Positions 8,853 through 34,836 of a stretch of DNA of 34,836 nucleotides are shown in pieces. The stretch is from NCBI GenBank assembly GCA_029932915.1, contig JAOZPE010000028.1:1-34836 (forward strand), written 5' to 3'. Made by a program: the position numbers and the translations under genes. The notes beneath the pieces are model-generated. The model was not told the origin of the DNA and searched no databases. It saw only the letters and a list, made by a program, of their open reading frames with translations. This DNA is from Candidatus Krumholzibacteriia bacterium. Its GTDB lineage: Bacteria; Krumholzibacteriota; Krumholzibacteriia; JAJRXK01. Numbering within the stretch: the stretch's first letter is position 1; the number at the start of each line of letters is the position of its first letter.

Positions 8853-8897
8853 TGCATTCTCGGTTCCGGGACTCCGATGGGTCCCAGGAAGGGGAAA

Positions 8898-9410: not shown

Positions 9411-9504
9411 GGATCTCCGGCTGCGGCGCGACGGTTTCGAGGGAGGACGACGTGGAAGGGTGGGCCTTCCCCGCGATTCTTCTCGACTGGAGTGGAGGAC
9501 TTCA

Positions 9505-10146: not shown

Positions 10147-10158
10147 GCGGCCGCGGGC

Positions 10159-10262
10159 CAGGACCGGACCAGCCGGGACGAGGCCAGATGGGCCAGGGCC
10201 GAGCGGCTGGGACGAGGCCTGGTGGGTCAGGACCGAACGGCTGGGACGAGGCCGCACGAGCG
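10159..10262. repeat. Three imperfect 34-35 bp tandem repeats
   Basis: Copies start at 10159, 10194 and 10228, each beginning CAGGnCCG and containing a GGCTGGGACGAGGCC-like core. They lie between the thioredoxin-like gene and the suf regulator. Confidence 0.75.
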
Positions 10263-10350
10263 GCCGGCACGCGGGTCCGGGAAGGCCCATTCCGCGGGCC
10301 CATGGCAGGGGCGATCCGATCGAGCGGGGTTCCGGTTTCCGGGGCCCCGC

Positions 10351-10384
10351 TTATACTTGACATAAGTGTAAACTTTCCTAACTT
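10351..10384 (+). promoter_or_regulatory. Palindromic operator overlapping the promoter of the Rrf2 regulator/suf operon
   Basis: Half-sites TTATACTT (10351-10358) and AAGTGTAA (10364-10371) are inverted with a 5-bp spacer and one mismatch. The -35 box TTGACA (10357-10362) lies inside the palindrome, followed by a 16-nt spacer and -10 TAACTT (10379-10384). A bound repressor would block RNA polymerase. The position just before an Rrf2-family gene suggests autoregulation. Confidence 0.65.
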
Positions 10385-10447
10385 GCCCGCACCCCAAGCG
10401 GATCCGCCTTTTCGTGGGCGGATGCACCCCGGAGGGACTGCGGTCGC

Positions 10448-10936
10448 ATGAAGATCTCGTCACAGGAGGAATACGGGCTGCGCTGCATGCTGCAGCTCGC
10501 TCGCTCGGCTCCAGGACCGATGAGCCTGGCCGAGATCTCCCGAGGCGAGGGGCTGAGCAGCGCCTACGCGGCCAAGCTGCTCGGCCAGTTGCGCGACCAT
10601 GGGCTGGTGGAGGCCGTCCGGGGCCGCAGCGGGGGCTATTCCCTCAGCCGTCCGCCCGAGGACATCACGGTCCGCGAGATCCTGTCCACCCTGGGCGGGC
10701 AACTCTTCGAAGAGCGCTTCTGCCATGAACACAACGGCTTGGGCGAATCGTGCGTCCATGCCGACTCGGTGTGCAACATCCGTTCGCTGTGGGAAGCGCT
10801 GAACGAGATGCTCTCGGCCGTGCTCGAACGCACCACCCTGGCCGACCTGTTGTGCTATGGGCGGGTGCAGGAGAAGCTCGAGGAACCCCGGCGGGCGATC
10901 CTCTCCGAGGGGAGCGGAGCCCAGGCGGTGAACTAG
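10448..10936 (+). CDS. Rrf2-family Fe-S-sensing regulator of the suf operon
   Basis: 162 residues. The N-terminal winged helix (about 1-75) carries the Rrf2 signature: [11 protein letters not shown], a recognition helix around [13 protein letters not shown], and the wing [17 protein letters not shown]. The dimer helix leads to three cysteines, C92, C102 and C109 (CX9CX6C), the place where IscR and SufR hold a [2Fe-2S] or [4Fe-4S] cluster. The spacing differs from IscR (CX5CX5C). A fourth cysteine, C136, follows. It lies directly upstream of sufCBD and probably controls them according to Fe-S demand or iron/oxidative stress. A GGAGG lies 12 nt before the ATG, slightly far. Which cluster it binds cannot be decided from sequence. 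Confidence 0.9.
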
Positions 10937-11070
10937 GCGATGGGGAAGCCGCCGGCGGCGATGATGCGCCGCCCGGCGGTGGCAGCAAACAGGTCACGAC
11001 GGTCCACGGGGGCCGTACACGCAAGCGAAGCGGTGTTTTCCCGAGGGAATCGCCGGCAGGAGCAGAGACG

Positions 11071-11844
11071 ATGACAGAAGGCAAGCCGCTGCTGGAGATC
11101 GAGGATCTCCACGTGTCCATCGAGGGCAAGGAGATCGTCAAGGGCCTCACCCTCACCCTCCACGCGGGGGAGAAGGTGGCCATCATGGGCCCGAACGGCT
11201 CGGGCAAGAGCACGCTGACCTACGCGGTGATGGGCCATCCCTCCTATGAGGTCACCGGGGGCAGCGTCAAGCTCGACGGCGAGGAGATCCTCGGCCTGCC
11301 CGCCGACGAACGCGCCCGCCGCGGTCTGTTCCTGGCCTTCCAGTACCCGACCGCGATTCCCGGGGTGAGCGTGGCCAACTTCCTGCGCTCGGCGGTCAAC
11401 GCCCGCCGTGAGGAGGAGATGCCGGTCCGCGACTTCCGGCGCGAACTCATGGACCAGTTCAAGCTGCTGGAGATTCCGAAGGCCTTCGCCGGCCGCTACG
11501 TGAACGACGGCTTCAGCGGCGGTGAGAAGAAGCGCCTGGAGATCCTGCAGATGGCCATGTTGAAGCCGAAGGTGGCGCTGCTGGACGAGACCGACAGCGG
11601 TCTGGACATCGATGCCCTGCGCCTGGTGAGCGAGGGCATCAACCGCGTGGCCGGCGAGGAGACCGGTGTCCTTCTGGTGACCCACTACCAGCGCATCCTC
11701 AACTATGTGAAGCCCGACGTCGTCCATGTGTACATGGACGGCCGCATCGTGCGCAGCGGCGGTCCCGAGTTCGCGCACGAGCTCGAGGAGAAGGGCTACG
11801 AGTGGATCGAGAAGGAAGTCTTCGCGCAGGCGCAGGAGGGTTGA
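11071..11844 (+). CDS. sufC: SufC, ATPase of the SufBCD scaffold
   Basis: 257 residues, normal length. SufC is the ABC-type ATPase that drives the SufBCD complex, on which Fe-S clusters are built in the cytoplasm. Walker A GPNGSGKS (40-47), Q-loop Q91, signature FSGGEKKR (148-155), Walker [13 protein letters not shown] (168-179) and the VTHYQR switch histidine are intact. FSGGEKKR and ETDSGLD are specific for SufC against transporter ATPases. The ATG at 11071 has AGGAG 8 nt upstream; the frame stays open farther upstream but homology begins here. It is 134 nt after the regulator and 2 nt before sufB. Confidence 0.97.
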
Positions 11845-11846
11845 GC

Positions 11847-13448
11847 ATGAGCTCGTCCAAGGCAGATTCCGGCGGCGCGGTGAAGAAGGACGCGCTGGGC
11901 CACCCCACCGCGGCCGAGGAGCGCGCGGCGGTGGAGAAACAGTCGTTGGACCGGCGCGCGGCGGCCTCCGAGAAGAGGGCGGTGATCGAGCAGCGGGCGG
12001 CGTCCAGCAAGGAGGCGGCGGCCGACCGGCGGGCTGCGGCGGGTTCGTCGATGGATCTGCGCGACGACTACGCCGAGAAGTACGGCTTCCACGATCCCGA
12101 GGAGTACTTCCACAAGGGTGCCCGCGGTCTCGACCACGAAGTGGTGGAGATGATGTCGCGCATGAAGGGCGAGCCCGACTGGATGCGCCTCTTCCGCCAC
12201 CAGGCCCTGGACATCTACCTGAGCAAGCCCATGCCCGACTGGGGCAACACCGGCGAGCTCGCCGACATCGATTTCGACAACATCTACTACTACATCAAGC
12301 CCATGGAGGAGCAGGGGCACAGTTGGGATGATGTCCCCGAGAACATCAAGAAGACCTTCGACCGCCTGGGCATCCCCGAGGCCGAACGCAAGTTCCTGGC
12401 CGGGGTGAGCGCCCAGTACGAGAGCGAAGTGGTCTACCACTCGGTGAAGAAGGAGCTGGAGGAACAGGGCATCCTCTTCTTCAGCATGGACGACGGGTTG
12501 AAGAAGTACCCGGAGATCGTGAAGAAGTACTTCGCCACGGTCATTCCACCCGAGGACAACAAGTTCGCCGCCCTGAACTCGGCGGTGTGGTCCGGGGGCA
12601 GCTTCATCTACGTCCCCCCCGGCGTGCACGTGGAGATTCCCCTGCAAGCCTACTTCCGCATCAACGCGGAGAACGCCGGCCAGTTCGAGCGCACACTGAT
12701 CATCGCCGACAAGGGCAGCCGGGTGCACTACATCGAGGGATGTACCGCGCCGGTCTACAGTACCGACTCGCTGCATTCGGCCGTGGTCGAACTCATCGCC
12801 ATGGACGACGCCTACATCCGCTACACGACCATCCAGAACTGGTCGAACAACATCTACAACCTGGTGACCAAGCGCGCGGTCGCCCACCGCAACGCGACGG
12901 TCGAGTGGGTGGACGGCAACATCGGCAGCAAGCTGACCATGAAGTTCCCGTGCATCTACCTGGTGGGCGAGGGAGCGAAGGGCGAGATCCTCTCGGTGGC
13001 CTTCGCCGGCGAGGGCCAGCATCAGGACGCCGGGAGCAAGGTCATCCACGCCGCGCCGCACACGACCTCGACCGTGACCTCCAAGTCGATCTCCAAGGAC
13101 GGGGGCCGTTCGAGCTATCGCGGCCTGGTGAAGATCCATCCCGGCGCGGTGGGCTGCAAGGTCTCGGTCGAGTGCGATGCCTTGATCCTCGACGAGAAGA
13201 GCCGCAGCGACACCTATCCGACGATGGAGGTCCAGGAGGACCAGGTGCAGGTGGAACACGAGGCGCGGGTCTCGAAGGTGGGCGACGAGCAGTTGTTCTA
13301 CCTGATGAGCCGCGGCATCAGCGCCGAGGAAGCGCGTCTGCTCATCGTGAACGGCTTCATCGAGCCCTTCACGAAGGAATTGCCCATGGAATACGCCGTC
13401 GAACTGAACCGTCTCATCGAGATGGAGATGGAAGGATCGGTCGGCTAG
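11847..13448 (+). CDS. sufB: SufB, core Fe-S scaffold subunit, with extra N-terminal segment
   Basis: 533 residues against about 470 for the family. SufB accepts sulphur and, with SufD and SufC, assembles the cluster. The family core starts at about residue 69 ([13 protein letters not shown]). Hallmarks are [39 protein letters not shown] with the conserved Cys, [17 protein letters not shown] and [12 protein letters not shown] with the Cys that matches E. coli C405. The first 68 residues are an added Ala/Glu/Arg/Lys-rich helix-forming stretch. The start at 11847 has GGAGG close upstream, while the ATG at 12051 has no ribosome binding site, so the extension is probably real. It follows sufC by 2 nt. 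Confidence 0.96.
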
Positions 13449-13496
13449 CTGGATTCCGGACGGTCGGAGGCTTCCGCTCGCCGGCGAGGAAGAAGC

Positions 13497-14846
13497 ATGC
13501 AGGAAACCGCACGACAAGCATTGCTCGATGAACAGGCGCTGGTGGAATTCTCGCGCAAGCGGGGAGAACCCCAGTGGCTGACCGAGGCGCGCCGCGCCGC
13601 GTGGTCGGTCTTCGTGGCCGCACCTTGGCCCGACCGGGCGCAGCATTTGTGGCGCTACAGCGACCCGCAGTGGTTCGAGCCGGAGAACGCCGAACTCACA
13701 GCGGGGAGCGCCGATCTCACAGGGGAGAACGCCGAACTCACAGCGGCGAAGGTGAAGGAAGGCGGGAACGCGACGGAAAGCGGGAACGCGGCGGAAGGTG
13801 GAGATGCGGTGGCGTTCCGCTCCTCCGGGGGCCTGACCGTGCGCATCAGCATCGAGGACCGCGAACGCGGCGTGGAGATCCTTCCCCTGGAGCGGGCAGC
13901 GGCCCATCCGGAGCACGGCGAACGGATCCGCCGCCGTCTGGGTTCGGCCGTGGGCGATTCTTTTGGCCGTCTGGAAGCACTGGACGCCGCCATCTGGAGC
14001 CGGGGTGTGTATCTCCATGTTCCCCGCGGGGTGAGGACGAGTGAACCCCTGCGGGTGGAGTTCAACGGCGCGTCCGATTCGATCGATGGACGCCGTGTGC
14101 TGATGATCGTCGAGGAGAACGCCGAGGCCATGCTGGTGGAACAGCACAGCGGGGACGCGGCGGACGGACGCTGTTGGGGAGTGAGTGAGGTCTTCGTCGG
14201 TGAGGGCGCCCGCGTGGACTACGTGCTGTTGCAGACCCTGGACGATTCGATCACGGCGCACCTGAGCCAACGCATCGTGCTCGAGCGGGATGCCCATGCC
14301 CGCTCCTCGCTGGTGAGCTTCGGTGGACGCAAGACCAAGGTCGACACGGGCACCCTTCTCGCGGGAGAGGGCAGTGAGGCCGAGACGGTGGGTCTGTTGT
14401 ACGGACACGGCCGTCAGTTCTTCGACCACCATACCGACCATCACCACAGCGCGCCGCACACCGACAGCAATCTGGACTTCAAGGTGGTCCTGAGCGGCCG
14501 CAGCCGCAGCTCCTATACCGGCAACATCACCATCGAGAAGAAGGCGCCGTTCAGTTCGGCCTTCCAGGAGAACCGCAACCTCCTGTTGAGCGAGAAGGCG
14601 CGGGCGGACAGCATTCCCGAGCTGGAGATCGACATCGACGAGGTGCAGTGCAGCCACGGCGCCACCATCGGTCCGATCAGCCCCGATGAACTCTTCTACC
14701 TGATGAGCCGGGGCATTCCCGAGAAGGAAGCGGTGAAACAGATCGTGCAGGGTTTCCTCGAAGCGATCCTGCAGAAGATCCCCGCCGATCTGCAGGAACC
14801 GCTGCGCGAGGAACTCGCCGTCCGGTTGGAGGAGATCCGCGCATGA
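13497..14846 (+). CDS. sufD: SufD, scaffold subunit, with repeat-encoded insertion
   Basis: 449 residues from an ATG with AGGAAG 7 nt upstream. SufD forms the beta-helix heterodimer with SufB and is needed for iron entry. The C-terminal signature QCSHGATIGPI contains the conserved Cys and His (E. coli C358 and H360), followed by [29 protein letters not shown] and RSSYTGNI are also family hallmarks. Between the N-terminal helical domain and the beta helix, residues about 63-105 are a low-complexity insertion made of short tandem repeats (see 13683-13811). Its stop overlaps the start of the Rieske gene by 4 nt. Confidence 0.95.
   Translation: MQETARQALLDEQALVEFSRKRGEPQWLTEARRAAWSVFVAAPWPDRAQHLWRYSDPQWFEPENAELTAGSADLTGENAELTAAKVKEGGNATESGNAAEGGDAVAFRSSGGLTVRISIEDRERGVEILPLERAAAHPEHGERIRRRLGSAVGDSFGRLEALDAAIWSRGVYLHVPRGVRTSEPLRVEFNGASDSIDGRRVLMIVEENAEAMLVEQHSGDAADGRCWGVSEVFVGEGARVDYVLLQTLDDSITAHLSQRIVLERDAHARSSLVSFGGRKTKVDTGTLLAGEGSEAETVGLLYGHGRQFFDHHTDHHHSAPHTDSNLDFKVVLSGRSRSSYTGNITIEKKAPFSSAFQENRNLLLSEKARADSIPELEIDIDEVQCSHGATIGPISPDELFYLMSRGIPEKEAVKQIVQGFLEAILQKIPADLQEPLREELAVRLEEIRA
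13683..13811. repeat. Two in-frame minisatellites inside sufD
   Basis: Three 21-bp units (13683-13745) encode ENAELTA, GSADLTG and ENAELTA; the first and third are identical in DNA. After 12 bp, three 18-bp units (13758-13811) encode EGGNAT, ESGNAA and EGGDAV. Both unit lengths keep the reading frame. Confidence 0.85.
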
Positions 14847-15160
14847 GCCACTACGTTGCCGTCGCCGACGCCGATGCCATTGCCGAGGGAAGCTCGAAGG
14901 TCTTCACCATCGACGACATCCGCGTGGCGGTGTGCCGGGTCGAGGGAGAGTACTATGCATTCGAGGACGTCTGCACCCACGACGACGCCCCCTTGGGTGA
15001 AGGACGACTGCTCGGTTTCGAGATCGAGTGTCCGCGCCACGGCGCCCGCTTCGATGTGCGCGACGGCCATGTGACGCGGATGCCGGCCGTCGCCCCTCTG
15101 CCGACCTTTCCGGTGAAAGTGGAGGGCGGCAGGATCCTCGTGGACCTCGAGGAGGATTGA
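14843..15160 (+). CDS. Rieske-type [2Fe-2S] ferredoxin in the suf operon
   Basis: 105 residues, a complete small Rieske domain with no other domain. The cluster ligands are CTH (C44, H46) and CPRH (C63, H66), in the context VCTHDDAPLGEG and CPRHGARFD. It resembles the soluble non-haem dioxygenase ferredoxins (NirD/BphF type). Its ATG overlaps the sufD stop (ATGA), and sufS starts 3 nt after it, so it is translationally coupled within the operon. Such ferredoxins occur between sufD and sufS in several FCB and actinobacterial suf operons. A role as electron donor during assembly is likely but not proved. Confidence 0.93.
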   Translation: MSHYVAVADADAIAEGSSKVFTIDDIRVAVCRVEGEYYAFEDVCTHDDAPLGEGRLLGFEIECPRHGARFDVRDGHVTRMPAVAPLPTFPVKVEGGRILVDLEED

Positions 15161-15162
15161 CA

Positions 15163-16410
15163 ATGGCCGAATCGTCGCCATTGGATGTCGCCCGCATCCG
15201 GCGCGACTTTCCCATTCTCTCCCGAGAGGTCCGGGGCAAGCCCCTTCTCTATCTGGACAGCGCCGCCACCACGCAGAAGCCGCAGGTGGTGCTCGATGCG
15301 CTGATGGACTACTACACCCACTCGAACGCCAACGTGCACCGGGCCATCCATACCCTCGGGGAAGAGGCGACCGCAGCCTACGAAGGTGTCCGGGACAAGG
15401 TGGCGGCCTTCCTTGGTGGAGTCGACCGCCGCGGTGTCGTCTTCACCCGCAACGCCACCGAATCGCTGAACCTGGTGGCCTACGCCTGGGCGCGCCCGCG
15501 TCTGGCGCGCGGCGACGAGATCCTCGTCAGCGAGATGGAACACCACAGCAATCTGGTTCCCTGGATCGAAGCGGCCCGGGTGACCGGCGCGGTGGTACGG
15601 ACCATCCCGGTGACCGACGAGGGCCTGCTCGATCTGGACGTCTACGAGGAACTGTTGGGCCACCACACCAAGATCGTGGCGGTGACGCACAAGTCGAACG
15701 TCCTGGGCACGATCAATCCGGTGGCCGAGATGGCCAAGGCGGCACACGACGTGGGCGCCTTCGTCGTCGTCGACGGCGCGCAGGCGGCGGCGCACATGCC
15801 GGTCGATCTGAACACCCTGGGCGCGGATGCCTATGCCTTCAGCGCGCACAAGATGCTCGGCCCGACCGGCGTCGGTGTGCTGTGGGCCCGCCCGGAGGTG
15901 CTGGAGGAGATGGACGCCTTCCTCGGCGGCGGTGAGATGATCCGTGAGGTCCACATGGACCGGGCCACCTTCAACGAGGTGCCCTGGAAGTTCGAGGCGG
16001 GCACGCCCAACATCGCCGGGGTCGTCGGTTTCGGAGCGGCCATCGACTACCTGCAAGCGCTGGGAATGGACAAGCTGAACCAGCACGAGACGCAGTTGAC
16101 CCTCTACGCCCGCGATCGGCTCGAGGAGATCGGGGGGTTGACCCTCTTCGGTCCACGCGATGCGATCCACGGCGGCGGCATCGTCACCTTCTGGGACAAG
16201 GACGTCCATCCCCACGACCTGTCCACCATCCTGGACACCCATGGGGTGGCCATCCGCGCCGGCCACCACTGTGCGCAGCCCTTGATGCGGCGCCTGGGCG
16301 TGGTGGCGACGGCCCGCGCTTCGTTCTATTGCTACAACGACCGCGATGACGTCGATGCCCTGGTGATGGCGCTCCACGAGTGCAGGAAGTACTTCGGTCA
16401 TGTCTCTTGA
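15163..16410 (+). CDS. sufS: SufS, type II cysteine desulfurase
   Basis: 415 residues, normal length. This PLP enzyme takes sulphur from cysteine as a protein persulphide for SufBCD. The N-terminal YLDSAATTQKP motif, EMEHHSN (H127/H128), VDGAQAAAH and the PLP lysine K230 in SAHKMLGPTG are intact. The catalytic Cys is C370 in RAGHHCAQP, the type II (SufS) arrangement, distinct from IscS. GGAGG lies 8 nt before the ATG. The 3' end overlaps sufU by 11 nt, consistent with SufU as its direct partner. Confidence 0.97.
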   Translation: MAESSPLDVARIRRDFPILSREVRGKPLLYLDSAATTQKPQVVLDALMDYYTHSNANVHRAIHTLGEEATAAYEGVRDKVAAFLGGVDRRGVVFTRNATESLNLVAYAWARPRLARGDEILVSEMEHHSNLVPWIEAARVTGAVVRTIPVTDEGLLDLDVYEELLGHHTKIVAVTHKSNVLGTINPVAEMAKAAHDVGAFVVVDGAQAAAHMPVDLNTLGADAYAFSAHKMLGPTGVGVLWARPEVLEEMDAFLGGGEMIREVHMDRATFNEVPWKFEAGTPNIAGVVGFGAAIDYLQALGMDKLNQHETQLTLYARDRLEEIGGLTLFGPRDAIHGGGIVTFWDKDVHPHDLSTILDTHGVAIRAGHHCAQPLMRRLGVVATARASFYCYNDRDDVDALVMALHECRKYFGHVS

Positions 16411-16924
16411 ACTGGATTCGATGTACCGCGAGGTGGTCCTGGACCACTACAAGCAGCCGCGCGGCCGCTGTCCCCTCGACCGTCACGACATCGAGAACGA
16501 GGGCTTCAATCCGGTCTGCGGCGACGAGGTGAAGATCGGACTGCGGATCGAGGATGGGATCATCCTCGGGGTCCACAGCCTGGGCCGCGGTTGTTCCATC
16601 AGTGTGGCTTCGGGTTCGATGCTGGCGGAGATCCTTCAGGGGAAGACCCTGGAGGAGGCCCGCAGCATCGCCGAGGACTTCCGGCGGATGATGCACGGCG
16701 AGATCACCCCCGACGAGGCCGACCTGGGTGATCTCGAGGCGCTGGAGGGCGTCCAGAAGTTTCCGGTGCGCATCAAGTGCGCCCTGCTGCCGTGGACGAC
16801 CCTGCTCGATGCCATCGAGGCCTACGAACGCGGTGCGAGGGCCGAGAAGAGCACCACCGAGGATCCCCAGTTGGGAGGGCGCCCGGGGATCGTCCACAAG
16901 AACGACGAGCGGAGATCGGTATGA
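16400..16924 (+). CDS. sufU: SufU, zinc-dependent sulphur-transfer partner of SufS
   Basis: 174 residues, slightly longer than the roughly 147 of B. subtilis SufU because of a charged tail after residue 147. The zinc ligands are C40, D42, C65 and C127, in NPVCGD, GRGCSISVASGSM and RIKCALLPW, matching the B. subtilis set C41/D43/C66/C128. The 18-20 residue stretch between helices that separates SufU from IscU is present. SufU takes the persulphide from SufS by zinc-ligand exchange, so SufE is not needed here. The start overlaps sufS by 11 nt and the stop overlaps the sufT start (ATGA). Confidence 0.95.
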   Translation: MSLELDSMYREVVLDHYKQPRGRCPLDRHDIENEGFNPVCGDEVKIGLRIEDGIILGVHSLGRGCSISVASGSMLAEILQGKTLEEARSIAEDFRRMMHGEITPDEADLGDLEALEGVQKFPVRIKCALLPWTTLLDAIEAYERGARAEKSTTEDPQLGGRPGIVHKNDERRSV

Positions 16925-26050: not shown

Positions 26051-26668
26051 ATGAGACCGAAGCAGGATGAGATGGAAGTGAGGAAGAAAGCCCCCGCGAG
26101 CCGGGTGGTGGGCCTGTATCTCTTCGTCCTCATCGTGCTCTCGTTGCTGTGGATGGCCTTTTCCGGCAAGTTCGACTGGTTGCACCTGAGCTACGGGGTC
26201 CTGTCGATCGTGCTGGTGATGGCACTCTCGCGGCGCCTGATCCTCCGGCTGGACACCGATCCCTCCCAGGACTGGATCCCCCACGTGCACTGGGGCTGGG
26301 CGCTGAGCTATCCCTTCTGGCTGGCCTGGCAGATCTTCGTGGCGAACTTCCAGGTGGCGTGGATCGTCATGCACCCGCGCCTGCCGATCGACCCGGTCCT
26401 GCTGCGGTTCCGCTGCGGCATGAAGGCCGACCTGGCCAAGGTCATTCTGGGCAACAGCATCACGCTGACCCCGGGAACCTTCACCCTGTTGATCGAGGAT
26501 GATTGCTTCCTGGTGCACTGCATCCACCCCAGCCTGGCCAGCGGCCTGATGGACGGGTCGATGCAGAGGAAGGTGGCCCAGGTCTTCGGCGAACACGCCC
26601 TCCTGGAGAGTGAGATGCAGATGGAGGTCTTGCGGGACATGGACCGTTACGTCGAGGAGCACCTGTGA
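26051..26668 (+). CDS. mrpE: Mrp antiporter subunit E (MbhA-like)
   Basis: 205 residues as drawn; an ATG at 26072 has AGGA 4 nt upstream and may be the real start, while 26051 has none. Three hydrophobic helices at the N-terminal half (LYLFVLIVLSLLWMAF, YGVLSIVLVMAL, LSYPFWLAWQIFVANFQVAW) are followed by a soluble C-terminal domain with LGNSITLTPGTFTLLIEDD, the clearest MrpE signature. MrpE is a membrane subunit of the multi-subunit Na+(K+)/H+ antiporter and is needed for complex stability. First gene of the operon; its stop overlaps the mrpF start. Confidence 0.93.
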   Translation: MRPKQDEMEVRKKAPASRVVGLYLFVLIVLSLLWMAFSGKFDWLHLSYGVLSIVLVMALSRRLILRLDTDPSQDWIPHVHWGWALSYPFWLAWQIFVANFQVAWIVMHPRLPIDPVLLRFRCGMKADLAKVILGNSITLTPGTFTLLIEDDCFLVHCIHPSLASGLMDGSMQRKVAQVFGEHALLESEMQMEVLRDMDRYVEEHL

Positions 26669-26934
26669 GCTTCCTGGAATGGATCACGGTCCTGGTGGCC
26701 CTCGCGCTGGTGTTGCCCTTCTACCGGGTGATCCGGGGGCTCACGGTCTACGACCGGATGATCGGGGTGAACGTGTCCGGAACGAACACCGTCATCCTGA
26801 TCTGCCTGGTGGGTCACATCTTCGGGCGCATCGACATGTTCATCGACATCGCCATCGCCTATGCCATGCTGAACTTCAGCGGGGCGCTGGTGGTGGCGAA
26901 GTACCTGGATCACACCGGGGAGACGCCGGAATGA
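26665..26934 (+). CDS. mrpF: Mrp antiporter subunit F (MbhB-like)
   Basis: 89 residues, three TM helices, GTG start overlapping the mrpE stop (GTGA) with GAGGAG 5 nt upstream. LPFYRVIRGLTVYDRMIGVNV is the family signature (R and D in VYDRM conserved), followed by a helix with DIAIAYAMLNF. Small integral subunit of the antiporter membrane complex. Its own stop overlaps the ATG of a 26-codon ORF. Confidence 0.93.
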   Translation: MSFLEWITVLVALALVLPFYRVIRGLTVYDRMIGVNVSGTNTVILICLVGHIFGRIDMFIDIAIAYAMLNFSGALVVAKYLDHTGETPE

Positions 26935-27011
26935 GCCTGGGTGCGGCATTGGATACCCAGATGGTGGGCGCCGGCCGGCTGGCGGCCGTGGTCCGGGGAG
27001 GCCGGCGATGA
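26931..27011 (+). CDS. Possible 26-residue ORF bridging mrpF and mrpG
   Basis: An ATG at 26931 overlaps the mrpF stop (ATGA), and its stop (27009-27011) overlaps the mrpG ATG (ATGA). The encoded peptide begins MSLGAALDTQMVGAG and ends in the basic VVRGGRR. It has no recognisable domain. It could be a real small subunit, or a coupling ORF that carries ribosomes from mrpF to mrpG, which also has its own GGGGAGG site at 26995-27001. A chance arrangement cannot be excluded. Confidence 0.35.
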   Translation: MSLGAALDTQMVGAGRLAAVVRGGRR

Positions 27012-27349
27012 TCTGGGTAGCGAAGGGTCTCATGGTGCTGGGGACGGCGCTGTTGTTCATCGCCGCGATCGGCGTCAATCGTCTTCCCGATTTCTACACC
27101 CGCTCGCACGCGGCCACCAAGCCGGACACCCTGGGCCTGATCTCGCTGATGCTGGGTCTGGCGATCTACGACGGCTTCACCCTCAGCAGCATCAAGATGC
27201 TGCTGATCATCGTCTTCGTGGCCCTGGCCAATCCCGCCGCCACCCACGCGCTGGGTCGCGCGGCTATCCGCAACGGCCTGTTGCCGGTGACGCTGTACAA
27301 GAAGTCCGCTTCCGCGGCGGGGACGGACGATCCGGGGGAGGGACGATGA
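27008..27349 (+). CDS. mrpG: Mrp antiporter subunit G (MbhC-like)
   Basis: 113 residues with three hydrophobic helices. IAAIGVNRLPDFYTRSHAATKPDTLG is the diagnostic MrpG region (conserved R-x-P-D-x-Y-T-R-x-H). ALANPAATHALGRAA at the end of the third helix is also conserved. The C-terminal 15 residues are charged and variable. Its stop overlaps the ATG of the next gene (ATGA). Confidence 0.94.
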   Translation: MIWVAKGLMVLGTALLFIAAIGVNRLPDFYTRSHAATKPDTLGLISLMLGLAIYDGFTLSSIKMLLIIVFVALANPAATHALGRAAIRNGLLPVTLYKKSASAAGTDDPGEGR

Positions 27350-27591
27350 GCGGTCACTTCAGCGCGGTGTTCTTCGTCCTGGCCCTGTTGGCCGCGATCG
27401 TGGCCCTGAAGGTGAAGGACCTGTTGGCTGCCGCCGTGGTGTTGAGCCTGTTCTCGTTCCTGGTGGCGTTGCTCTACGTCTCCCTCGGAGCGGTCGACGT
27501 GGGCTTCAACGAGTCGGTGCTGGGCGCCGGGGTGACCGGCATCCTGTTCGTGATCGCGATCTTCAACACCCGCCGTCGTTCGCGGGACTGA
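27346..27591 (+). CDS. MbhD-like DUF4040 subunit (part of MrpA C-terminus)
   Basis: 81 residues with three TM helices. The sequence LKVKDLLAAAVVLSLFSFLVALLY is the DUF4040 hallmark, found in MrpA after its antiporter domain and as the stand-alone MbhD of archaeal membrane-bound hydrogenase. In Mrp complexes this part forms the site at the contact of MrpA with other subunits. Here it is a separate protein. The start overlaps the mrpG stop; the next gene starts 10 nt later. Confidence 0.9.
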   Translation: MSGHFSAVFFVLALLAAIVALKVKDLLAAAVVLSLFSFLVALLYVSLGAVDVGFNESVLGAGVTGILFVIAIFNTRRRSRD

Positions 27592-27601
27592 GGAGCCGAG
27601 T

Positions 27602-27907
27602 ATGGGTCGCGTGCTGGCTTTCCTGGTGATCGTGGCGGTGGGCGTGGTCCTGGTCTACGCCGGCTTCGGTCTGCCTGCGTTCGGCGATCCCAACGCTCCG
27701 GCGTCGACCCACGTGTCCGATGCCTACATCGAACACGCCTACCATGACGCGCACACGCCGAACTTCGTCACGGTGATGATCGCCGACTACCGTTCCTTCG
27801 ATACCCTGGGTGAGTCGATCGTGGTGTTCACCGCCGGTCTGGCCTGTTTCCTCCTGCTGCGCAGCGAACGGCGCCGCAAGAGGCAGGGAGGCGGGCAGCA
27901 GACATGA
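27602..27907 (+). CDS. MbhE-like subunit (C-terminal part of MrpA)
   Basis: 101 residues, with GAGGAG 6 nt before the ATG. Hydrophobic helix 5-22, then an outward loop GFGLPAFGDPNAPASTHVSD and YHDAHTPNFVTVMIADYR, then GESIVVFTAGLACFLLL. The LPxFGDPxAPAxTHVS and DYRxxDTLGE motifs are specific for MbhE/MrpA C-terminal segments. The tail is basic. It overlaps the mrpB start by 4 nt (ATGA). Confidence 0.9.
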   Translation: MGRVLAFLVIVAVGVVLVYAGFGLPAFGDPNAPASTHVSDAYIEHAYHDAHTPNFVTVMIADYRSFDTLGESIVVFTAGLACFLLLRSERRRKRQGGGQQT

Positions 27908-28383
27908 TCCGACCGAAGGAGACCATCATCACCGATCACGTGGTGCGGGTCATGGTTCCGTTCATCCAGATCTTCGCGTTCTACGTGATCTTCCATGGCC
28001 ATTACAGTCCGGGCGGCGGCTTCCAGGGAGGCGCCCTGCTGGCCGGCAGCGTCCTGCTGCAGCGGGTGGTCCTGGGGGCGGAGCGCTCGCAGATCGGTTT
28101 CCCCACCCGATTGGGCATTCCCTTCGGAGCCTTGGGCATCCTCATCTACGCCGGGGTGGGTTTCCTGGCGATGCTCGACGGGGGCAACTACCTGCAGTAC
28201 GACCATCTCCCCTTCGGCATGACCCCGGTGTACCTGCGGAACACCGGCATCCTGCTGGTGGAGATCGGCGTGGCCTTCGCGGTGACCGGGACCCTCGTGT
28301 CCATCTATGACGACCTGGTGAACTTCGAGCGGCGGGATGACCAGGCCGAGATGCACTCGGCCGGTTCGAGGGAGGACGCCTGA
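27904..28383 (+). CDS. mrpB: Mrp antiporter subunit B (MbhF-like, MnhB domain)
   Basis: 159 residues with about four TM helices. FYVIFHGHYSPGGGFQGG is the MnhB signature, carrying His residues in the turn; LRNTGILLVEIGVAFAVTGTLVSIYDDL is the conserved end helix with a buried Glu. A short charged tail follows. It overlaps the preceding gene by 4 nt, and mrpC follows 1 nt later. Confidence 0.94.
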   Translation: MIRPKETIITDHVVRVMVPFIQIFAFYVIFHGHYSPGGGFQGGALLAGSVLLQRVVLGAERSQIGFPTRLGIPFGALGILIYAGVGFLAMLDGGNYLQYDHLPFGMTPVYLRNTGILLVEIGVAFAVTGTLVSIYDDLVNFERRDDQAEMHSAGSREDA

Positions 28384-28384
28384 G

Positions 28385-28849
28385 ATGGACGGCTTCGAGG
28401 TGTTCTTCGTCGAGAAGTGGCCCTACCTGGCCACCGTCCTGATGATCCTCATCGGACTGTACGGGATGGTCCTCAAGAGGAACCTGGTGAAGAAGCTCAT
28501 CGGGATGAACATCTTCCAGGGCGCCATCATCCTGTTCTTCATCATCCATGGCTGGAAGCGGGGCGCCACCGTCCCGGTGTACGACGAGGCCTTCGGCGAT
28601 CTTCCCGCCAACTATGTCAATCCCATCCCCCATGGCCTGATGCTCACCGCCATCGTGGTCTCGGTGGCCACCACCGGGGTGGCGCTGGCCCTGCTGTCGC
28701 TCATCTACAAGCGCTTCGGGACCCTGGAGGAGGACGAACTGCTCCGGGAGTTGCGCGCCGAGCCGGCCGGAGCGCCGAGCTCGGGAGAGATGGCTTCGCA
28801 GAGGGAAGACGTGGAAGGCGCCGAGCCGGACGACGGGGGGCAGCGGTGA
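28385..28849 (+). CDS. mrpC: Mrp antiporter subunit C (MbhG/NuoK-like)
   Basis: 154 residues from an ATG with GGAGG 9 nt upstream. Three TM helices as in NuoK: LATVLMILIGLYGMVLKRNLVKKLIGMN, FQGAIILFFIIHGW and PHGLMLTAIVVSVATTGVALALLSLIYKRFG, the last containing the conserved PHxLMLTAIVVxxA motif. A 30-residue acidic/Gly tail is extra. The stop overlaps the GTG start of mrpD. Confidence 0.94.
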   Translation: MDGFEVFFVEKWPYLATVLMILIGLYGMVLKRNLVKKLIGMNIFQGAIILFFIIHGWKRGATVPVYDEAFGDLPANYVNPIPHGLMLTAIVVSVATTGVALALLSLIYKRFGTLEEDELLRELRAEPAGAPSSGEMASQREDVEGAEPDDGGQR

Positions 28850-30597
28850 GCGTGAAGTGGACGAGCAGGCTGTGGGCCGGAGCTGGGACCGCGTTGGCCA
28901 CGCTGGTCTCGGCCGTGGGCGTGGCCGCCGCGGCGGGCCACGAGATGGCCCAGGCGCACGGGGATCTGTCTGCGATCCATGGCGCGGCAACGCAGAGCCC
29001 CGACGCCTTCCAGATCCCGGCCATGGTCCTTGCGCCCCTGCTGATCGGGGTGGTGCTGGTGCCCGCGCTGGGCCGCCTGCGCCGGAGCCTCGCCTACCAG
29101 GTCACCGTGGTGGTCTTCGTGGCCTATCTGGCGGTGGCGCTGAAAGCGCTGACCACCGTGCTGGCGCACGGCACACTGCACTACAAGATGGCCGGTTGGA
29201 TGCCGCCTGTCGGCATCGAGTGGACCCTCGATGCCTTGAGCGCCTTCGTGGTGCTGGTGCTGGCGGTGGTGGCGGTGATGGTGGCCATCTACTCGGGTGT
29301 GGCGGTGCGCCGTCAGAACCCCGAGCGCGAGGTGCCGTTCTTCTCGATGATGGTGGTCATGATGCTGGGCCTGACCGGCATGGTGATGACCGGCGACCTC
29401 TTCAATCTCTACGTGTTCTTCGAGGTGAGCAGCCTCAGCGCCTACGCCCTGATGGCCGTGGGCGACCGCAAGGCACCGGTGTCGTCGTTCCGCTACCTGC
29501 TGCAGGGAACCATCGGCGCGTCCTCGTACCTGATGGGCGTCGGCTATCTCTACGTGCTCACCGGTAGCCTGAACATGGCCGACGTGGCGTCGCTGCTGCC
29601 GCATCTTCTGGGCAACCCGGCGCTGACGGTGGCCCTGGTCCTGATGGTCGCTGGACTGGGCCTGAAGATGGCCCTGTTCCCGATGCACCTGTGGCTGCCC
29701 GACGCCTACACCTACGCCTCGTCGACGAGCACGGCGATCATCGCGCCGGTGATGACGAAGGTCTCGGCCTACGTGCTCATCCGCATGATCTACTTCGTCT
29801 TCGATTCGAATTGGGTGCTCTCGGATCTGCACCTGGGGTTCGTGGTGACTTGGTTGGCCATGGCCGGTGTGATCTGGGGCTCGGTGATGGCCATCGCCCA
29901 GCGCGACGTCAAACGCATGCTGGCCTACTCGTCGATCGCGCAAGTGGGATACATCGGCGTCGGTATCGGCACGGGCAATCCGTGGGCCCTGGTGGGCGCC
30001 ATCCTGCACATCATGAACCACGCGACCATGAAGAGCTCGCTGTTCATGGTCACCGGCATCGTGGAGATGCAGACGGGGACGCGGCGCCTGCAGAACTGGA
30101 ACGGGCTGGGGCGGAAGATGCCCTGGACCTTCCTGGCCTTCACCCTGGCCGCGTTGGCGATGGTCGGCGTGCCTCCGACCAACGGTTTCTTCTCGAAGTG
30201 GTATCTGGCGCTGGGTCTGGCCGGGGCGAAGCAGTGGGTGTTGCTGGTGTTGCTGGTGCTGAGCAGTCTGTTGACCGCAGGCTATTTCTTCCGGCTGCTC
30301 GAGCGGATCTATGCGCGGACGGGCGAGGACGTCGGGTCCGGGTCGGCGCGTGTGGGTGAGGCGGGCGATGGCGGGGTGCGCGAGGACGGCGGTGCGAACG
30401 CGGACGGCGTGAAGCTCGCCGGTGCGAGTGGTTCAGGCATCGCCGGCGCGCGCGATCCCGGTCTGGCCCTTCTTCTGCCGCCTCTGCTGCTGGGTGTGGG
30501 AACGCTGGTGCTGGGTCTGGTCAACGCCTGGTTCGTGACTGAGGTCATCGCCAAGGCGCTGCCGGCGGCGCTGCGGATTCCGGGACTGGGGGGATGA
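28846..30597 (+). CDS. mrpD: Mrp antiporter subunit D (MbhH-like), first antiporter-type subunit
   Basis: 583 residues from a GTG overlapping the mrpC stop; MrpD is usually about 490-500. Fourteen-helix proton-conducting fold of the NuoL/M/N family. Key charges are present: E193 in NLYVFFEVSSLSAYAL (TM5), K274 in GLGLKMALFPMHLWLPDAY (TM7) and K305 in PVMTKVSAY (TM8). Two additions explain the length: an N-terminal segment of about 55 residues with signal-peptide-like features (LATLVSAVGVAAAAGHEMAQ), and a Gly/Ala/Asp-rich insertion (about 500-540) before the last helices. It couples proton flow to Na+ or K+ exchange in the complex. Seven nt separate it from the next subunit gene. Confidence 0.93.
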   Translation: MSVKWTSRLWAGAGTALATLVSAVGVAAAAGHEMAQAHGDLSAIHGAATQSPDAFQIPAMVLAPLLIGVVLVPALGRLRRSLAYQVTVVVFVAYLAVALKALTTVLAHGTLHYKMAGWMPPVGIEWTLDALSAFVVLVLAVVAVMVAIYSGVAVRRQNPEREVPFFSMMVVMMLGLTGMVMTGDLFNLYVFFEVSSLSAYALMAVGDRKAPVSSFRYLLQGTIGASSYLMGVGYLYVLTGSLNMADVASLLPHLLGNPALTVALVLMVAGLGLKMALFPMHLWLPDAYTYASSTSTAIIAPVMTKVSAYVLIRMIYFVFDSNWVLSDLHLGFVVTWLAMAGVIWGSVMAIAQRDVKRMLAYSSIAQVGYIGVGIGTGNPWALVGAILHIMNHATMKSSLFMVTGIVEMQTGTRRLQNWNGLGRKMPWTFLAFTLAALAMVGVPPTNGFFSKWYLALGLAGAKQWVLLVLLVLSSLLTAGYFFRLLERIYARTGEDVGSGSARVGEAGDGGVREDGGANADGVKLAGASGSGIAGARDPGLALLLPPLLLGVGTLVLGLVNAWFVTEVIAKALPAALRIPGLGG

Positions 30598-30604
30598 GGC
30601 GCTG

Positions 30605-32110
30605 ATGGATGCCCTGCACACCTTCCACAGTACACGTCCCTTGTGGGCCCTGCTGGTCTCGCTGCTGGCGATTCCGTTGATCGTCGCCACCGGCGAGCGG
30701 CACCGGAACCTGCGGGAGACGTGGACCATCCTGGCCGCAGTGGCGAAGACCGTCCTGGTCTGGTCGATGCTGCCGTGGGTGTTGCAGGGGCGGGTGCCGG
30801 AGATCTCGCTGTGGCGCATCACGCCTTCGGTGGAGCTGGCGCTGCGGGTGGACACCCTGGGGCTGGTGTTCGCGATCGTCGCCTCGACCCTGTGGCTGTT
30901 GACCTCCCTGTACAGCATCGGCTATGTGCGCGGAGCGGGCGAACACAAGCAGACCCGCTACTTCGCCTCCTTTGCGATGTGTCTGCATGCGACCATCGGT
31001 ATCGCGTTCGCGGCCAACCTGGTGACCTTCCTCATCTTCTTCGAGATGCTGAGCATCGCCACCTATCCGCTGGTCATCCACAAGGAGACGCCGGTGGCCC
31101 TGGCCGCGGGCCGCAAGTACCTGAGCTTCGTCCTGCCGGCGGGCCTGATGCTGCTGCTCGCGGTGGTGTTGACCGCGAGCATCCATCCCGGCGGACTCGA
31201 CTTCCAGGCCGGCGGCTTCCTCTCCGGTGACGATGCGTCGCGGGTCCTGCTGCGGTGGATCTTCCTGTTCTTCATCCTCGGCGTCGGAGTGAAGGCGGCG
31301 ATCATGCCCCTGCAGTCGTGGTTGCCGGCGGCGATGGCCGCGCCCACTCCCGTGAGTGCCCTGCTGCACGCGGTGGCGGTGGTCAAGGCCGGCGTCTTCG
31401 GGGTGTTGCGGGTGACCGGCTACGTCTACGGACCGCATCTGTTGAAGGACATCGGGGTGTGGACCGCCCTGGCCTGGTTCGCCGGGGTGACCCTGACCGT
31501 CGCCTCGCTGCTGGCGCTGCGGCAGGACAACCTGAAGCGGCGGCTGGCCTACTCGACGGTGGGTCACTTGAGCTACATCGTGCTGGGTGCGGCCATCCTC
31601 ACCCCCTACGGCCTGATCGGCTCGGTCCTGCACCTGATGTTCCACGCGACGATGAAGATCACCCTGTTCTTCTGCGCGGGGGCGATCTACGTGCGGACCC
31701 ACAAGGAACAGATCTCCGACATGGTGGGCATCGGACGGCAGATGCCCATCACCATGGGCGCCTTCGCGGTGGGCAGTCTCGGCCTGGCCGGGATCCCCGG
31801 GATCAACGGCTTCTTCTCCAAGTGGAACCTGGCGCTGGGAACGGCCCAGGGAGGGCAGTGGATCTTCCTCGGGCTGTTGGTGCTTTCGGGCGTGTTGAAC
31901 GCGGCGTACTTCTTCCCCATCGTCCAGCAGGCCTTCTTCCGTCGCAATCCCGAGTTCTCCTCGTACGGTGAGGCGAGCATGTGGATGGTCGTTCCGTTGG
32001 CATTGACGGCCCTGATGTCGCTGGTGCTGGGTCTGGCCCCGAACCTGGCCGCCCACGCGTGGGATCTGGCACGCGCGGTCTCCGCCGCGGTGATGGGAGG
32101 TGCGGGATGA
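30605..32110 (+). CDS. Second antiporter-type subunit (MrpD/MrpA-N like)
   Basis: 501 residues, about 14 TM helices, NuoL/M/N family. TM5 carries E147 in FLIFFEMLSIATYPLV; TM7 K230 in GVGVKAAIMPLQSWLPAAM; TM8 H255/K261 in SALLHAVAVVKAGVFG. The PTPVSALLHAVAVVKAG segment is closer to MrpA-N/NuoL than to MrpD, so it may fill the place of the missing MrpA antiporter domain. SLYSIGYVRGAGEHKQTRYF and NGFFSKWNLALG are conserved. All residues needed for proton transfer are present. The following small gene overlaps its stop (ATGA). Confidence 0.92.
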   Translation: MDALHTFHSTRPLWALLVSLLAIPLIVATGERHRNLRETWTILAAVAKTVLVWSMLPWVLQGRVPEISLWRITPSVELALRVDTLGLVFAIVASTLWLLTSLYSIGYVRGAGEHKQTRYFASFAMCLHATIGIAFAANLVTFLIFFEMLSIATYPLVIHKETPVALAAGRKYLSFVLPAGLMLLLAVVLTASIHPGGLDFQAGGFLSGDDASRVLLRWIFLFFILGVGVKAAIMPLQSWLPAAMAAPTPVSALLHAVAVVKAGVFGVLRVTGYVYGPHLLKDIGVWTALAWFAGVTLTVASLLALRQDNLKRRLAYSTVGHLSYIVLGAAILTPYGLIGSVLHLMFHATMKITLFFCAGAIYVRTHKEQISDMVGIGRQMPITMGAFAVGSLGLAGIPGINGFFSKWNLALGTAQGGQWIFLGLLVLSGVLNAAYFFPIVQQAFFRRNPEFSSYGEASMWMVVPLALTALMSLVLGLAPNLAAHAWDLARAVSAAVMGGAG

Positions 32111-32421
32111 AGCTGCAACGGCCTGGTGCGCGGGGGTGGATCGTGGCACTCGTCCTGGCGCTGGTGGTGATCGTCGGGCCGATGCTGGTGCCGCACGCGG
32201 AGGAACACGAGGCGTGGTGGTCGTCGATCCCGGCGTGGTGGGCGATCTTCGGATTGCTCGCGGCGTCGGCGGCCATCCTGCTGAGCGCCCTGCTGGGATG
32301 GATGTTCCTGGAACAGGGCGAGGACTTCTATGGGGAAGGGTCCGAGGGTGGCGACGGTCTCGAGGAGGAGGGCGGGCGCGATGACGCGAACACGGCCCGC
32401 CGGGAAGGACGGTCACGATGA
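32107..32421 (+). CDS. Small two-TM protein of the mrp operon
   Basis: 104 residues with two TM helices (about 11-29 and 46-68), the first after a basic N-terminus and the second ending near LGWMFLEQGEDFYGEG. The 35-residue tail is Glu/Gly/Asp-rich. Its start overlaps the stop of the preceding antiporter subunit and its stop overlaps the start of the next (both ATGA). Small proteins with an IPxxWAIFGLL-like second helix and a x(E/D)DxY end sit in the same place in some deltaproteobacterial mrp clusters, as far as I recall. Likely an accessory subunit; function unknown. Confidence 0.82.
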   Translation: MKLQRPGARGWIVALVLALVVIVGPMLVPHAEEHEAWWSSIPAWWAIFGLLAASAAILLSALLGWMFLEQGEDFYGEGSEGGDGLEEEGGRDDANTARREGRSR

Positions 32422-34319
32422 ACGGGAGCAGGGACATCTCGACTGCCCGCGTGGGTCTGGCCCTGCTCCTGGCAGCGGTGGCGATCGGGGTATGGGTCGT
32501 GGCCGGCCCGTCCCTGGCCGATGCACAGACCACCCATGCCCAGACAGTCGAGTTGGCGCCGCGTCTCGCGCCTGAGGTGGTCCATGGCAGCGCGTGGCCG
32601 CCGGCGATGATCCTCGTGCTCGGTTCCCTCCTGGTGATCGTCTCTCCGCGGCGTCTGCGTTCCGCTCTGGCGGTGCTGTTGCCGGCAGCGGCGCTGTACT
32701 ACGTGTGGGTGCTGCCGGACGGCAGTCTGGTGCAACTGTCCTTCTCGGGTCTGGACCTGACGGTGCTGCGGGCCGACCGCCTGTCGTTGATCTTCGGCAA
32801 GATCTTCGCCCTGGTGGGTCTGTTGGGCGCGATCTTCGCGTGGCACGTGGACGACCGTCGGCAGCAGGTGGCGGCCCTGTTGTACAACGCGGGTTCGCTG
32901 GGTGTGACCTTCGCCGGTGACTACTTCACCCTGTACGCTTTCTGGGAGCTGATGGCCGTCGCGTCGGTGCTGCTGATCTGGGCGCGCGACCGCAGCGATT
33001 CGCAGGCGGCGGGCCGGCGCTACATCCTCGTGCACCTGACCGGTGGCGCGGTGCTGCTGGCGGGGATCCTCCTGCATCTGCACGGGACGGGCAGCATCGC
33101 CTTCGACCGCTTCCTGCCCGGCGAGGGCGGCCTGGCGGCCTGGCTCATACTCGTGAGCTTCTCGTTGAACGCGGGTGTGCCGCCCTTGGGGGCGTGGTTG
33201 CCCGACGCCTATCCGCGCGCGACCATCACCGGTGCGGTGTTCATGTCGGCGCTGACGAGCAAGACCGCGGTCTACACGCTGCTGCGGGGCTATCCCGGTT
33301 GGGAGATCCTCATCGTCTTCGGCGCGGTGATGGCGGTCTACAGCGTGGTGTACGCGCTGTTGGCCAACGACATCCGCCGCATCCTGGCCTACTCGATCAT
33401 CTCGCAGGTGGGCTACATGGTGACCGCGGTGGGTATCGGGACGGCCATGGCGGTCAACGGCGCGACGGTGCATGCGGTCAGCCACATCCTGTACAAGGCG
33501 CTGTTGTTCATGGCCGCCGGCGCGGTGATCTACTCGACCGGCCGGGAGAAGCTGACCGATCTGGGCGGGCTGTGGCGGCGGCAGAAGCTGATCTTCTCGC
33601 TGTACATCGTCGGCGCGTTGTCGATCTCGGGGATTCCCCTGTGGAACGGATTCATCTCCAAGTCGATGGTGATCGCCGCCGCGGGTGAGGAACATCTGAA
33701 CGGGGTCTACCTGCTGTTGATGGTGGCCAGTGTGGGTTCGTTCCTGCACACCGGCCTGCGGCTGCCCTACTACGCGTGGATGGGCAAGGACCGCGGAATC
33801 GAGACCCGTCCGATTCCGGTGAACATGATCGTGGCCATGGTGCTGGGGGCCTTGCTGTGCACCGTGACCGGCGTGGCGCCTGGGAGTCTCTATCGCTACC
33901 TGCCCTACGCGGTGCACTGGAATCCGTGGACCTTCCCGCATCTGGTGGAGACGGCGCAGATGCTGTTGTTCGCGTTCTTCGCGTTCTGGGTGTTGCGGCC
34001 GCTGCTGGTGCCGCGTGCTGTCGTGGTGGTCGATGTGGACGTGGTGTATCGCAAGAGCGCGCCGCTTCTGCGGTGGATCTTCGTCGATGCGGTGGGGGCG
34101 GTCTTCGACGCTTCCGAAGCGGTGATGCAGCGTGTGGCGCACGGGGTGGTCGAGTCGATGCGCGACCCCTTGCGGCTGGTGCCTGGCTATCCCCGCCGGG
34201 TACACACCGACGAACCCGACTTCGACGAGGACCGGGCACGGCCGCCGTTGATCCTGCCGTTGGGCCTGGCCCTGGCGGTGCTGGCCATCCTGTGGCTGGT
34301 GGCACGGCTGGTGCGGTAG
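32418..34319 (+). CDS. Third antiporter-type subunit, divergent (TM7 Lys replaced by Asn)
   Basis: 633 residues. The NuoL/M/N fold is recognisable: TM5 E177 in LYAFWELMAVASVLLIW, TM8 K282 in SALTSKTAVYTLLR, then AYSIISQVGYMVTAV and HILYKALLFMAAGAVIYSTG. At TM7 the usual Lys is Asn251 (SFSLNAGVPPLGAWLPDAYP). The N-terminus (1-37) looks like a signal peptide (ALLLAAVAIGVWVVAGPSLADAQ region). The C-terminus is about 110 residues longer than in MrpD, with a lateral amphipathic stretch after FAFWVLRPLLVP and a last TM. Last gene of the operon. It may have a structural or altered ion role. Confidence 0.9.
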   Translation: MNGSRDISTARVGLALLLAAVAIGVWVVAGPSLADAQTTHAQTVELAPRLAPEVVHGSAWPPAMILVLGSLLVIVSPRRLRSALAVLLPAAALYYVWVLPDGSLVQLSFSGLDLTVLRADRLSLIFGKIFALVGLLGAIFAWHVDDRRQQVAALLYNAGSLGVTFAGDYFTLYAFWELMAVASVLLIWARDRSDSQAAGRRYILVHLTGGAVLLAGILLHLHGTGSIAFDRFLPGEGGLAAWLILVSFSLNAGVPPLGAWLPDAYPRATITGAVFMSALTSKTAVYTLLRGYPGWEILIVFGAVMAVYSVVYALLANDIRRILAYSIISQVGYMVTAVGIGTAMAVNGATVHAVSHILYKALLFMAAGAVIYSTGREKLTDLGGLWRRQKLIFSLYIVGALSISGIPLWNGFISKSMVIAAAGEEHLNGVYLLLMVASVGSFLHTGLRLPYYAWMGKDRGIETRPIPVNMIVAMVLGALLCTVTGVAPGSLYRYLPYAVHWNPWTFPHLVETAQMLLFAFFAFWVLRPLLVPRAVVVVDVDVVYRKSAPLLRWIFVDAVGAVFDASEAVMQRVAHGVVESMRDPLRLVPGYPRRVHTDEPDFDEDRARPPLILPLGLALAVLAILWLVARLVR

Positions 34320-34434: not shown

Positions 34435-34836
34435 CTAACGACTCTTCCCTTCGAGCGCGTCCTTCTCCAGGCGGAGGAGGGCTTTCTTGCGCCACAGTCC
34501 AGCGCCGTATCCCACCAGTTTGCCGTTGGATCCGATGACCCGGTGACAGGGAACGATGACCGTGACCGGGTTGTTGTGGTTGGCCATGCCCACTGCCCGG
34601 GCCGAGTGGGGCACGTCGATGCGTCGGGCGATCTCTCCGTAGCTGGCTGTCTTGCCGTAGGGAATGCGTGTGAGTTGCTTCCAGACCTTCTTCTGGAAGG
34701 GCGTTCCCCGCAGGTCGAGGGGCATCTCCAGGTCGGAGGGACCGACGGGCTCACCTGCGAAGTAGCGCTCGAGCCAACGGCGGACGGGAGTGAGACGGTG
34801 GTGGGAGGAGCGCAGGATGATGCCTTCGGTGCCCGA
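34435..34836 (-). CDS. Methylated-DNA--protein-cysteine methyltransferase, C-terminal part (runs off right edge)
   Basis: The minus-strand frame is open to the last base, giving 133 codons of the C-terminal end; the true start lies outside. An internal ATG at 34725 is not the likely start because the upstream sequence (LERYFAGEPVGPSDLEMPLD) fits the family. FQKKVWKQLTRIPYGKTASYGEIAR, the arginine-finger helix SARAVGMANHNNP, the active-site VPCHRVIGSNGKLVGYGAGL and the closing RKKALLRLEKD match Ogt/MGMT. The protein removes O6-alkyl groups from guanine onto its own Cys, a one-time repair. Confidence 0.94.
   Translation of the reverse strand, partial: SGTEGIILRSSHHRLTPVRRWLERYFAGEPVGPSDLEMPLDLRGTPFQKKVWKQLTRIPYGKTASYGEIARRIDVPHSARAVGMANHNNPVTVIVPCHRVIGSNGKLVGYGAGLWRKKALLRLEKDALEGKSR

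Follow-up and report, generated by a model that had tools for sequence, protein, structure and literature searches.

The window, a stretch of 34,836 nt from a Candidatus Krumholzibacteriia bacterium (GenBank assembly GCA_029932915.1, contig JAOZPE010000028.1, our contig C82; the host genome comprises 2.9 Mb in 98 contigs), carries on its plus strand, at 26051–34319, an operon of eleven genes related to Mrp cation/proton antiporters. Searches against Pfam and NCBIfam gave the order MrpE-F-G-MbhD-MbhE-MrpB-MrpC-D1-D2-sm-D3 (Table 1), in which D1, D2 and D3 are antiporter-like proteins and sm is a small membrane protein. The three antiporter-like proteins score 151–208 bits against PF00361 (Proton_antipo_M; cut-off 21.5) in a profile search of the genome. 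These families bear out the Mbh-type order E-F-G-MbhD-MbhE-B-C-D that a first-pass annotation of this DNA had proposed, as well as its claim that MrpA is split, with MbhD (PF13244) and MbhE (PF20501) being separate genes, and that two further antiporter-like proteins and a small membrane protein are found in place of the MrpA N-terminal half.

Successive genes either share 4 bases or are separated by at most 10, the sole exception being a 73-base gap between mrpF and mrpG. The neighbouring genes, lipoprotein-like upstream and MGMT-like downstream, are both on the opposite strand. Within 26051–34319 the Pfam and NCBIfam searches found no Nuo or hydrogenase gene, including none for the NiFe hydrogenase or quinone-site-like subunits MbhJ–N and none for the redox module MbxJ–N, consistent with the proposal of a stand-alone operon devoid of a redox module. 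A further proposal, that the operon ends at a hairpin, fared less well: near its end, plus-strand hairpins with a T-rich tail occur only at 34459–34482, within the gene on the opposite strand, and the region shows only about a twofold enrichment of such hits over shuffled sequence. We rejected this hairpin plus T-run as an unconvincing terminator. The mrpF–mrpG gap (26931–27011) holds a 26-codon open frame that nothing marks as a gene.

Table 1. Genes of the eleven-gene operon in the window
Gene	Assignment	Position	Strand	Residues	Evidence
mrpE	MrpE / MbhA-like	26051..26668	+	205	PF01899, 101.8 bits (cut-off 27)
mrpF	MrpF / MbhB-like; Asn36 at the cation-path Asp	26665..26934	+	89	PF04066, 53.3 bits; aligned to solved MrpF chains
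mrpG	MrpG / MbhC-like	27008..27349	+	113	PF03334, 93.5 bits; exceeds TIGR01300 cut-off
mbhD	MbhD; matches part of MrpA C-terminal domain	27346..27591	+		PF13244, 56.2 bits
mbhE	MbhE; matches remainder of MrpA C-terminal domain	27602..27907	+		PF20501, 48.1 bits
mrpB	MrpB / MbhF-like	27904..28383	+	159	PF04039, 91.5 bits; family also named MnhB
mrpC	MrpC / MbhG / NuoK-like	28385..28849	+	154	PF00420, 73.4 bits; solved MBS/MBH/Mrp C chains
D1	MrpD/MbhH-type antiporter-like; GTG start	28846..30597	+	583	PF00361, 204.5 bits
D2	Antiporter-like	30605..32110	+	501	PF00361, 188.9 bits; MrpA/NuoL TM7–TM8 signature
sm	Small membrane protein	32107..32421	+	104	Position between D2 and D3; no Pfam family
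D3	Antiporter-like with lateral helix; Asn251 for TM7 Lys	32418..34319	+	633	PF00361, 151 bits; PRK12668, 671.6 bits (cut-off 564)

The genome contains eight PF00361 matches, all accounted for by nuoL, nuoM and nuoN in the complete nuo operon of contig C33, a fused pair on C30, and D1–D3; none of the eight is MrpA. The C30 operon (locus L035, C30 10000–29000; about 5990–16690) has the order E F G mbhD mbhE+B C, followed by a 1106-residue frame with two fused antiporter domains, and also encodes NuoH/B/C/D-like subunits together with a ferredoxin/GltA-like flavoprotein; the cation-path aspartate is retained in its MrpF. We read this operon as a probable Mbx/MBS-like redox complex. A second nuoB/C/D/H set is present on C13 (locus L167), an 8.8-kb contig that ends inside nuoH, with no antiporter subunits for this set in the assembly, and the sole NiFe hydrogenase large-subunit gene of the genome lies on C32, a different contig from the operon. 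A check of the genome for nuo, mbx and hydrogenase partners, as the annotation had proposed, thus found them on C33, C30, C13 and C32 and none in the transcript of the operon. The complete redox complexes come with antiporter arms of their own, and no redox partner shares the operon's transcript.

To the three antiporter-like subunits different identities can be given. The best solved matches of D1 are MbsH and MbhH, and D1 groups with MrpD/MbhH in the tree. Both D1 and D2 have the glutamate of transmembrane helix (TM) 5 and the lysines of TM7, TM8 and TM12 in every sequence compared. The best NCBIfam models for D2, PRK07234 and PRK08375, both score below their own cut-offs, and D2 has no C-terminal lateral helix extension. 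Its TM7–TM8 signature, MxxPTPVSAxLH, has an inserted histidine that occurs in 27/27 D2, 4/4 MrpA and 4/4 NuoL sequences and, in the same alignment, is absent from D1, D3, MrpD and NuoM. On our reading of the alignment this residue probably corresponds to His248 of MrpA, which is functionally important (PMC9568556). A grouping of D2 with the MrpA N-terminal half, which the first-pass annotation had named as support for replacement, is borne out by this rare shared signature. The tree places neither D2 nor D3. Each forms one clade (support 100 each) with no placement of its sister group; a group of D2, MrpA and NuoL was already present in the tree of a reduced set, with support 6, and approximately-unbiased tests on that set rejected none of the three runnable groupings.

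The AlphaFold model of D3 (predicted local distance difference test score (pLDDT) of 85, predicted template modelling score (pTM) of 0.80) has a 42-residue helix at 541–582 and a final TM helix at 612–632, and its best fold match is MrpA (7qru_A) over 604 columns. The features of MrpA-N and NuoL thus appear to be divided, with the TM7–TM8 signature in D2 and the lateral helix in D3. D3 is strongly conserved, and its TM5 glutamate, TM8 lysine and TM12 lysine are invariant. The TM7 lysine, which is kept in all D1, D2, MrpA, MrpD and NuoL/M/N sequences compared, is replaced in D3 by asparagine (59/60) or aspartate (1/60). Because this loss extends across the D3 family, an ordinary proton channel in D3 is doubtful, in Mrp and nuo contexts alike, and the idea that the complex has three ion paths was not borne out. 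The sm protein has two hydrophobic stretches and, in relatives, a conserved C-terminal EDYY-like motif; most of the related loci retain it at this place, between D2 and D3.

To establish how widespread the arrangement is, D3 was used as the query with one genome per species, and the best 80 of at least 576 encoding stretches were kept as related loci. Among these 80, 28 have the exact eleven-gene order (with sm undetected in a few) and 10 more contain E, F and G with small order changes or fused frames, so that 38/80 carry the set; a further 18 belong to nuo operons, 23 sit on contigs whose shortness prevents a call, and the remaining one is of another kind. Among the hosts are Ignavibacteriota, Thermodesulfobacteriota, Chloroflexota, Acidobacteriota, Verrucomicrobiota, Spirochaetota, Bacillota, Altiarchaeales and ANME-2. 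Within the phylum of the window itself, D3 scored above the cut-off in only 4 of 80 genomes, plus one fragmented copy, which fits patchy inheritance. Most of the related operons have no Nuo gene nearby. Four loci from Ignavibacteria/Bacteroidota (L053, L056, L058 and L061) have the eleven-gene Mrp operon between nuoM and nuoN, although nuoN was not reached in L056, and in L065 it lies directly upstream of a nuo operon whose own D2–D3 pair replaces nuoL.

In the 18 loci in nuo operons, most of which also show sm, D2 and D3 occupy the place of nuoL, after nuoJ(K) and before nuoM-nuoN, and D2-sm-D3 is annotated at the same place in nuo operons on Sinorhizobium and Rhizobium plasmids. Such operons encode the 'green' complex I of Degli Esposti and Martinez Romero 2016, as cited in PMC9040806. 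Copies of D2 from Mrp and nuo contexts share the one D2 clade, and copies of D3 likewise share theirs; the D3 C-terminal tail differs by context, being NuoL-like in nuo operons and of another type in Mrp operons. D2-sm-D3 is a cassette common to Mrp and nuo operons.

In MrpF of Anoxybacillus flavithermus, D35 is described as invariably conserved and lies on the proposed Na+ route, and the D35L substitution is inactive (Steiner and Sazanov, PMC7419157). Alignment to solved MrpF chains places Asn36 of the window at this position, and the 39 aligned operons of the class all have Gly, Asn, Ser, Ala or Thr there. With three additional class operons, which also lack it, aspartate occurs in 0/42. It is retained in all 25 Mrp/MBH/MBS controls (MBH, membrane-bound hydrogenase), comprising 16 other operons (15 of them in related genomes belonging to the same class, the other being that on C30 of the own genome), 5 solved Mrp/MBH/MBS chains and 4 copies from genomes in which the class occurs as well. 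The operon lacks this functional hallmark of Mrp, to which the definition of group 3 by gene content makes no reference. In a partial literature search we found no published mention of this class-wide loss. The loss extends beyond the eleven-gene class, because three copies of another multi-MrpD arrangement (L157, L160 and L162) carry glutamine at the position. The layout of these loci, F G mbhD/B C D D with a divergent third antiporter-like frame and E at one end, resembles the mrpFGBCDDAE cluster of Microbacterium sp. TS-1 (PMC5703873).

Other residues of the proposed path are retained in the class, including the MbhD glutamate, the MbhE aspartate and glutamate, and the D1 TM5 glutamate: MbhD Asp51 and Glu56 are kept in 38/38 class sequences, and MbhE Asp67 and Glu71 in 37/37. 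Class MrpF has a lysine five residues past the Asp35 position in 30/39, class MrpB has gained a glutamate at 120 in 38/39, and position 49 of MrpC is hydrophobic, compared with Asn in 16 aligned controls. We dropped MrpC Gln45 (38/39) as a class marker, since Gln is also found in two MrpA-type operons from class-holding genomes.

Taken together, these results lead us to predict, with a probability of about 0.72, that the operon codes for a stand-alone cation/proton antiporter of the group 3 Mrp type in which D2-sm-D3 replaces the antiporter half of MrpA. The families and gene order suggest that the small subunits E, F, G, B and C with MbhD and MbhE would form the cation-handling and coupling end; D1, as the counterpart of MrpD/MbhH, would sit next to MrpC, and the subunits would follow in the order D1-D2-D3. 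D2 would supply the MrpA/NuoL-like proton channel, and D3 would be the distal subunit, with its lateral helix and last TM helix strapping the row together. Because D3 has kept the TM5 glutamate and the TM8 and TM12 lysines but lost the TM7 lysine, we consider a modified end piece, or one that does not pump, more likely than a third channel of the ordinary kind. Protons entering by way of D1 and D2 would power the movement of cations at the small-subunit end, where the cation may reach the Glu/Asp ladder along a path bypassing the MrpF aspartate, and the likely role would be pH and cation homeostasis. Three observations weigh against this prediction. A residue whose D35L substitution inactivates the A. 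flavithermus protein (PMC7419157) is missing in the class, and cation antiport through the described route is therefore not assured; the tree places neither D2 nor D3; and the Mrp operons inside or beside nuo operons in several Ignavibacteria/Bacteroidota loci hint at a link to complex I there.

The absence of the MrpF aspartate from the class, when every control keeps it, speaks for the alternative that the known mechanism of Na+/H+ antiport does not apply to the complex, which would have abandoned the MrpF-Asp route and would exchange another ion, or translocate protons only, using D1 and D2. The other changes in MrpF, MrpB and MrpC would fit such a switch, for which the group 1 Mrp of Thermomicrobium, exchanging Ca2+, offers a precedent (PMC5703873). 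We nevertheless consider it rather unlikely: the Glu/Asp ladder of MbhD, MbhE and D1 is kept, and Na+ antiport could still proceed because simulations describe a second sodium entry route to the glutamate of the ladder that bypasses the MrpF aspartate (PMC9568556). In addition, changing this aspartate to Asn, the residue of the window, had a mild effect in Bacillus subtilis MrpF, as quoted in PMC7419157. No more probable is a complex in which D1, D2 and D3 are all full proton channels, giving a higher proton/cation ratio than an ordinary Mrp; the strong conservation of D3 with its three invariant charged residues would favour this, as would published work in which the related complex I pair is counted among the ion pumps (PMC9040806), yet D3 has lost precisely the TM7 lysine that all the other compared subunits keep. 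Least probable by a clear distance is that the operon supplies a membrane arm or add-on to a redox complex encoded elsewhere, for example by the nuo set on C13 that has no antiporter subunits or, by analogy, as in the Ignavibacteria/Bacteroidota loci next to nuo genes, since C13 ends inside nuoH, so that the assembly may simply not contain its J–N genes, the operon brings an MrpC and MbhD/MbhE of its own as counterparts of NuoK/NuoJ, most related operons lack a nearby Nuo gene and the Mbx-like operon of C30 comes with a separate antiporter half.

Beyond the predicted group 3 antiporter of the window, we tentatively suggest a widespread class that has given up the aspartate-gated sodium route found in every characterised Mrp, MBH and MBS complex and that uses a two-subunit cassette with the channel in D2 and the strap in D3, shared with complex I as an exchangeable module, the transported ion perhaps not being sodium. 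There is dispute both over how cations pass through Mrp-type complexes and over the parts of complex I that pump. The class amounts to a natural experiment, in that a sodium-path residue held to be essential is gone class-wide and a supposed pumping subunit lacks its central lysine, and the same cassette, judged by genomic context, serves an antiporter and complex I. These natural variants make models of coupling and stoichiometry testable.

Group 3 Mrp systems are defined as having no full-length MrpA and only MrpD-type subunits, sometimes several (PMC8415708; also PMC5703873). With E, F, G, B and C present, no full-length MrpA and several MrpD-type subunits, the operon is by gene content a group 3 Mrp, a kind known but poorly studied. 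It has no MrpA of the kind found in groups 1 and 2, in which an N-terminal antiporter domain is joined to an MbhD/MbhE-like C-terminal domain. Every subunit type of the group 1/2 Mrp of Bacillus, Anoxybacillus and Dietzia has a counterpart here, with MbhD and MbhE together equivalent to the MrpA C-terminal domain, but the MrpA antiporter domain is replaced by D2-sm-D3, and the gene order and the MrpF residue differ. The MbhA–H half of archaeal MBH shares the order E-F-G-D-E-B-C-D and the separate MbhD and MbhE, whereas the operon lacks MbhI–N, has two extra antiporter-like subunits and lacks the MrpF/MbhB aspartate.

The arrangement itself is not new. The stand-alone group 3 Mrp of P. furiosus (PF1147-1153; mrpEFGBB'CD, no MrpA), which has been assigned a Na+-linked role in pH (PMC8415708), and that of 'Ca. 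Nitrospira alkalitolerans', in which two NuoM/NuoL-like genes follow mrpD (PMC7784846), resemble the operon in their E-F-G-B-B'-C-D content and in lacking both MrpA and a redox module; the P. furiosus system has a single MrpD, to which the operon here adds D2-sm-D3. The second precedent besides Nitrospira is the 'green' complex I of rhizobia (PMC9040806), in which NuoL gives way to two MrpD-like subunits; its homologous D2 and D3 fall in the same clades and keep the order D2-small protein-D3. There, unlike in Mrp operons, the pair lies within a nuo operon that also encodes NuoM/N and redox subunits, and the D3 tail is NuoL-like, whereas the operon of the window has its cassette outside any nuo operon and contains no nuoA–K, M or N. 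What our analysis adds is the definition of the eleven-gene class, the cassette common with complex I, the apparent splitting of the MrpA hallmarks between D2 and D3, and two residue losses that run through the class, of which that of the MrpF aspartate is new as far as we searched.

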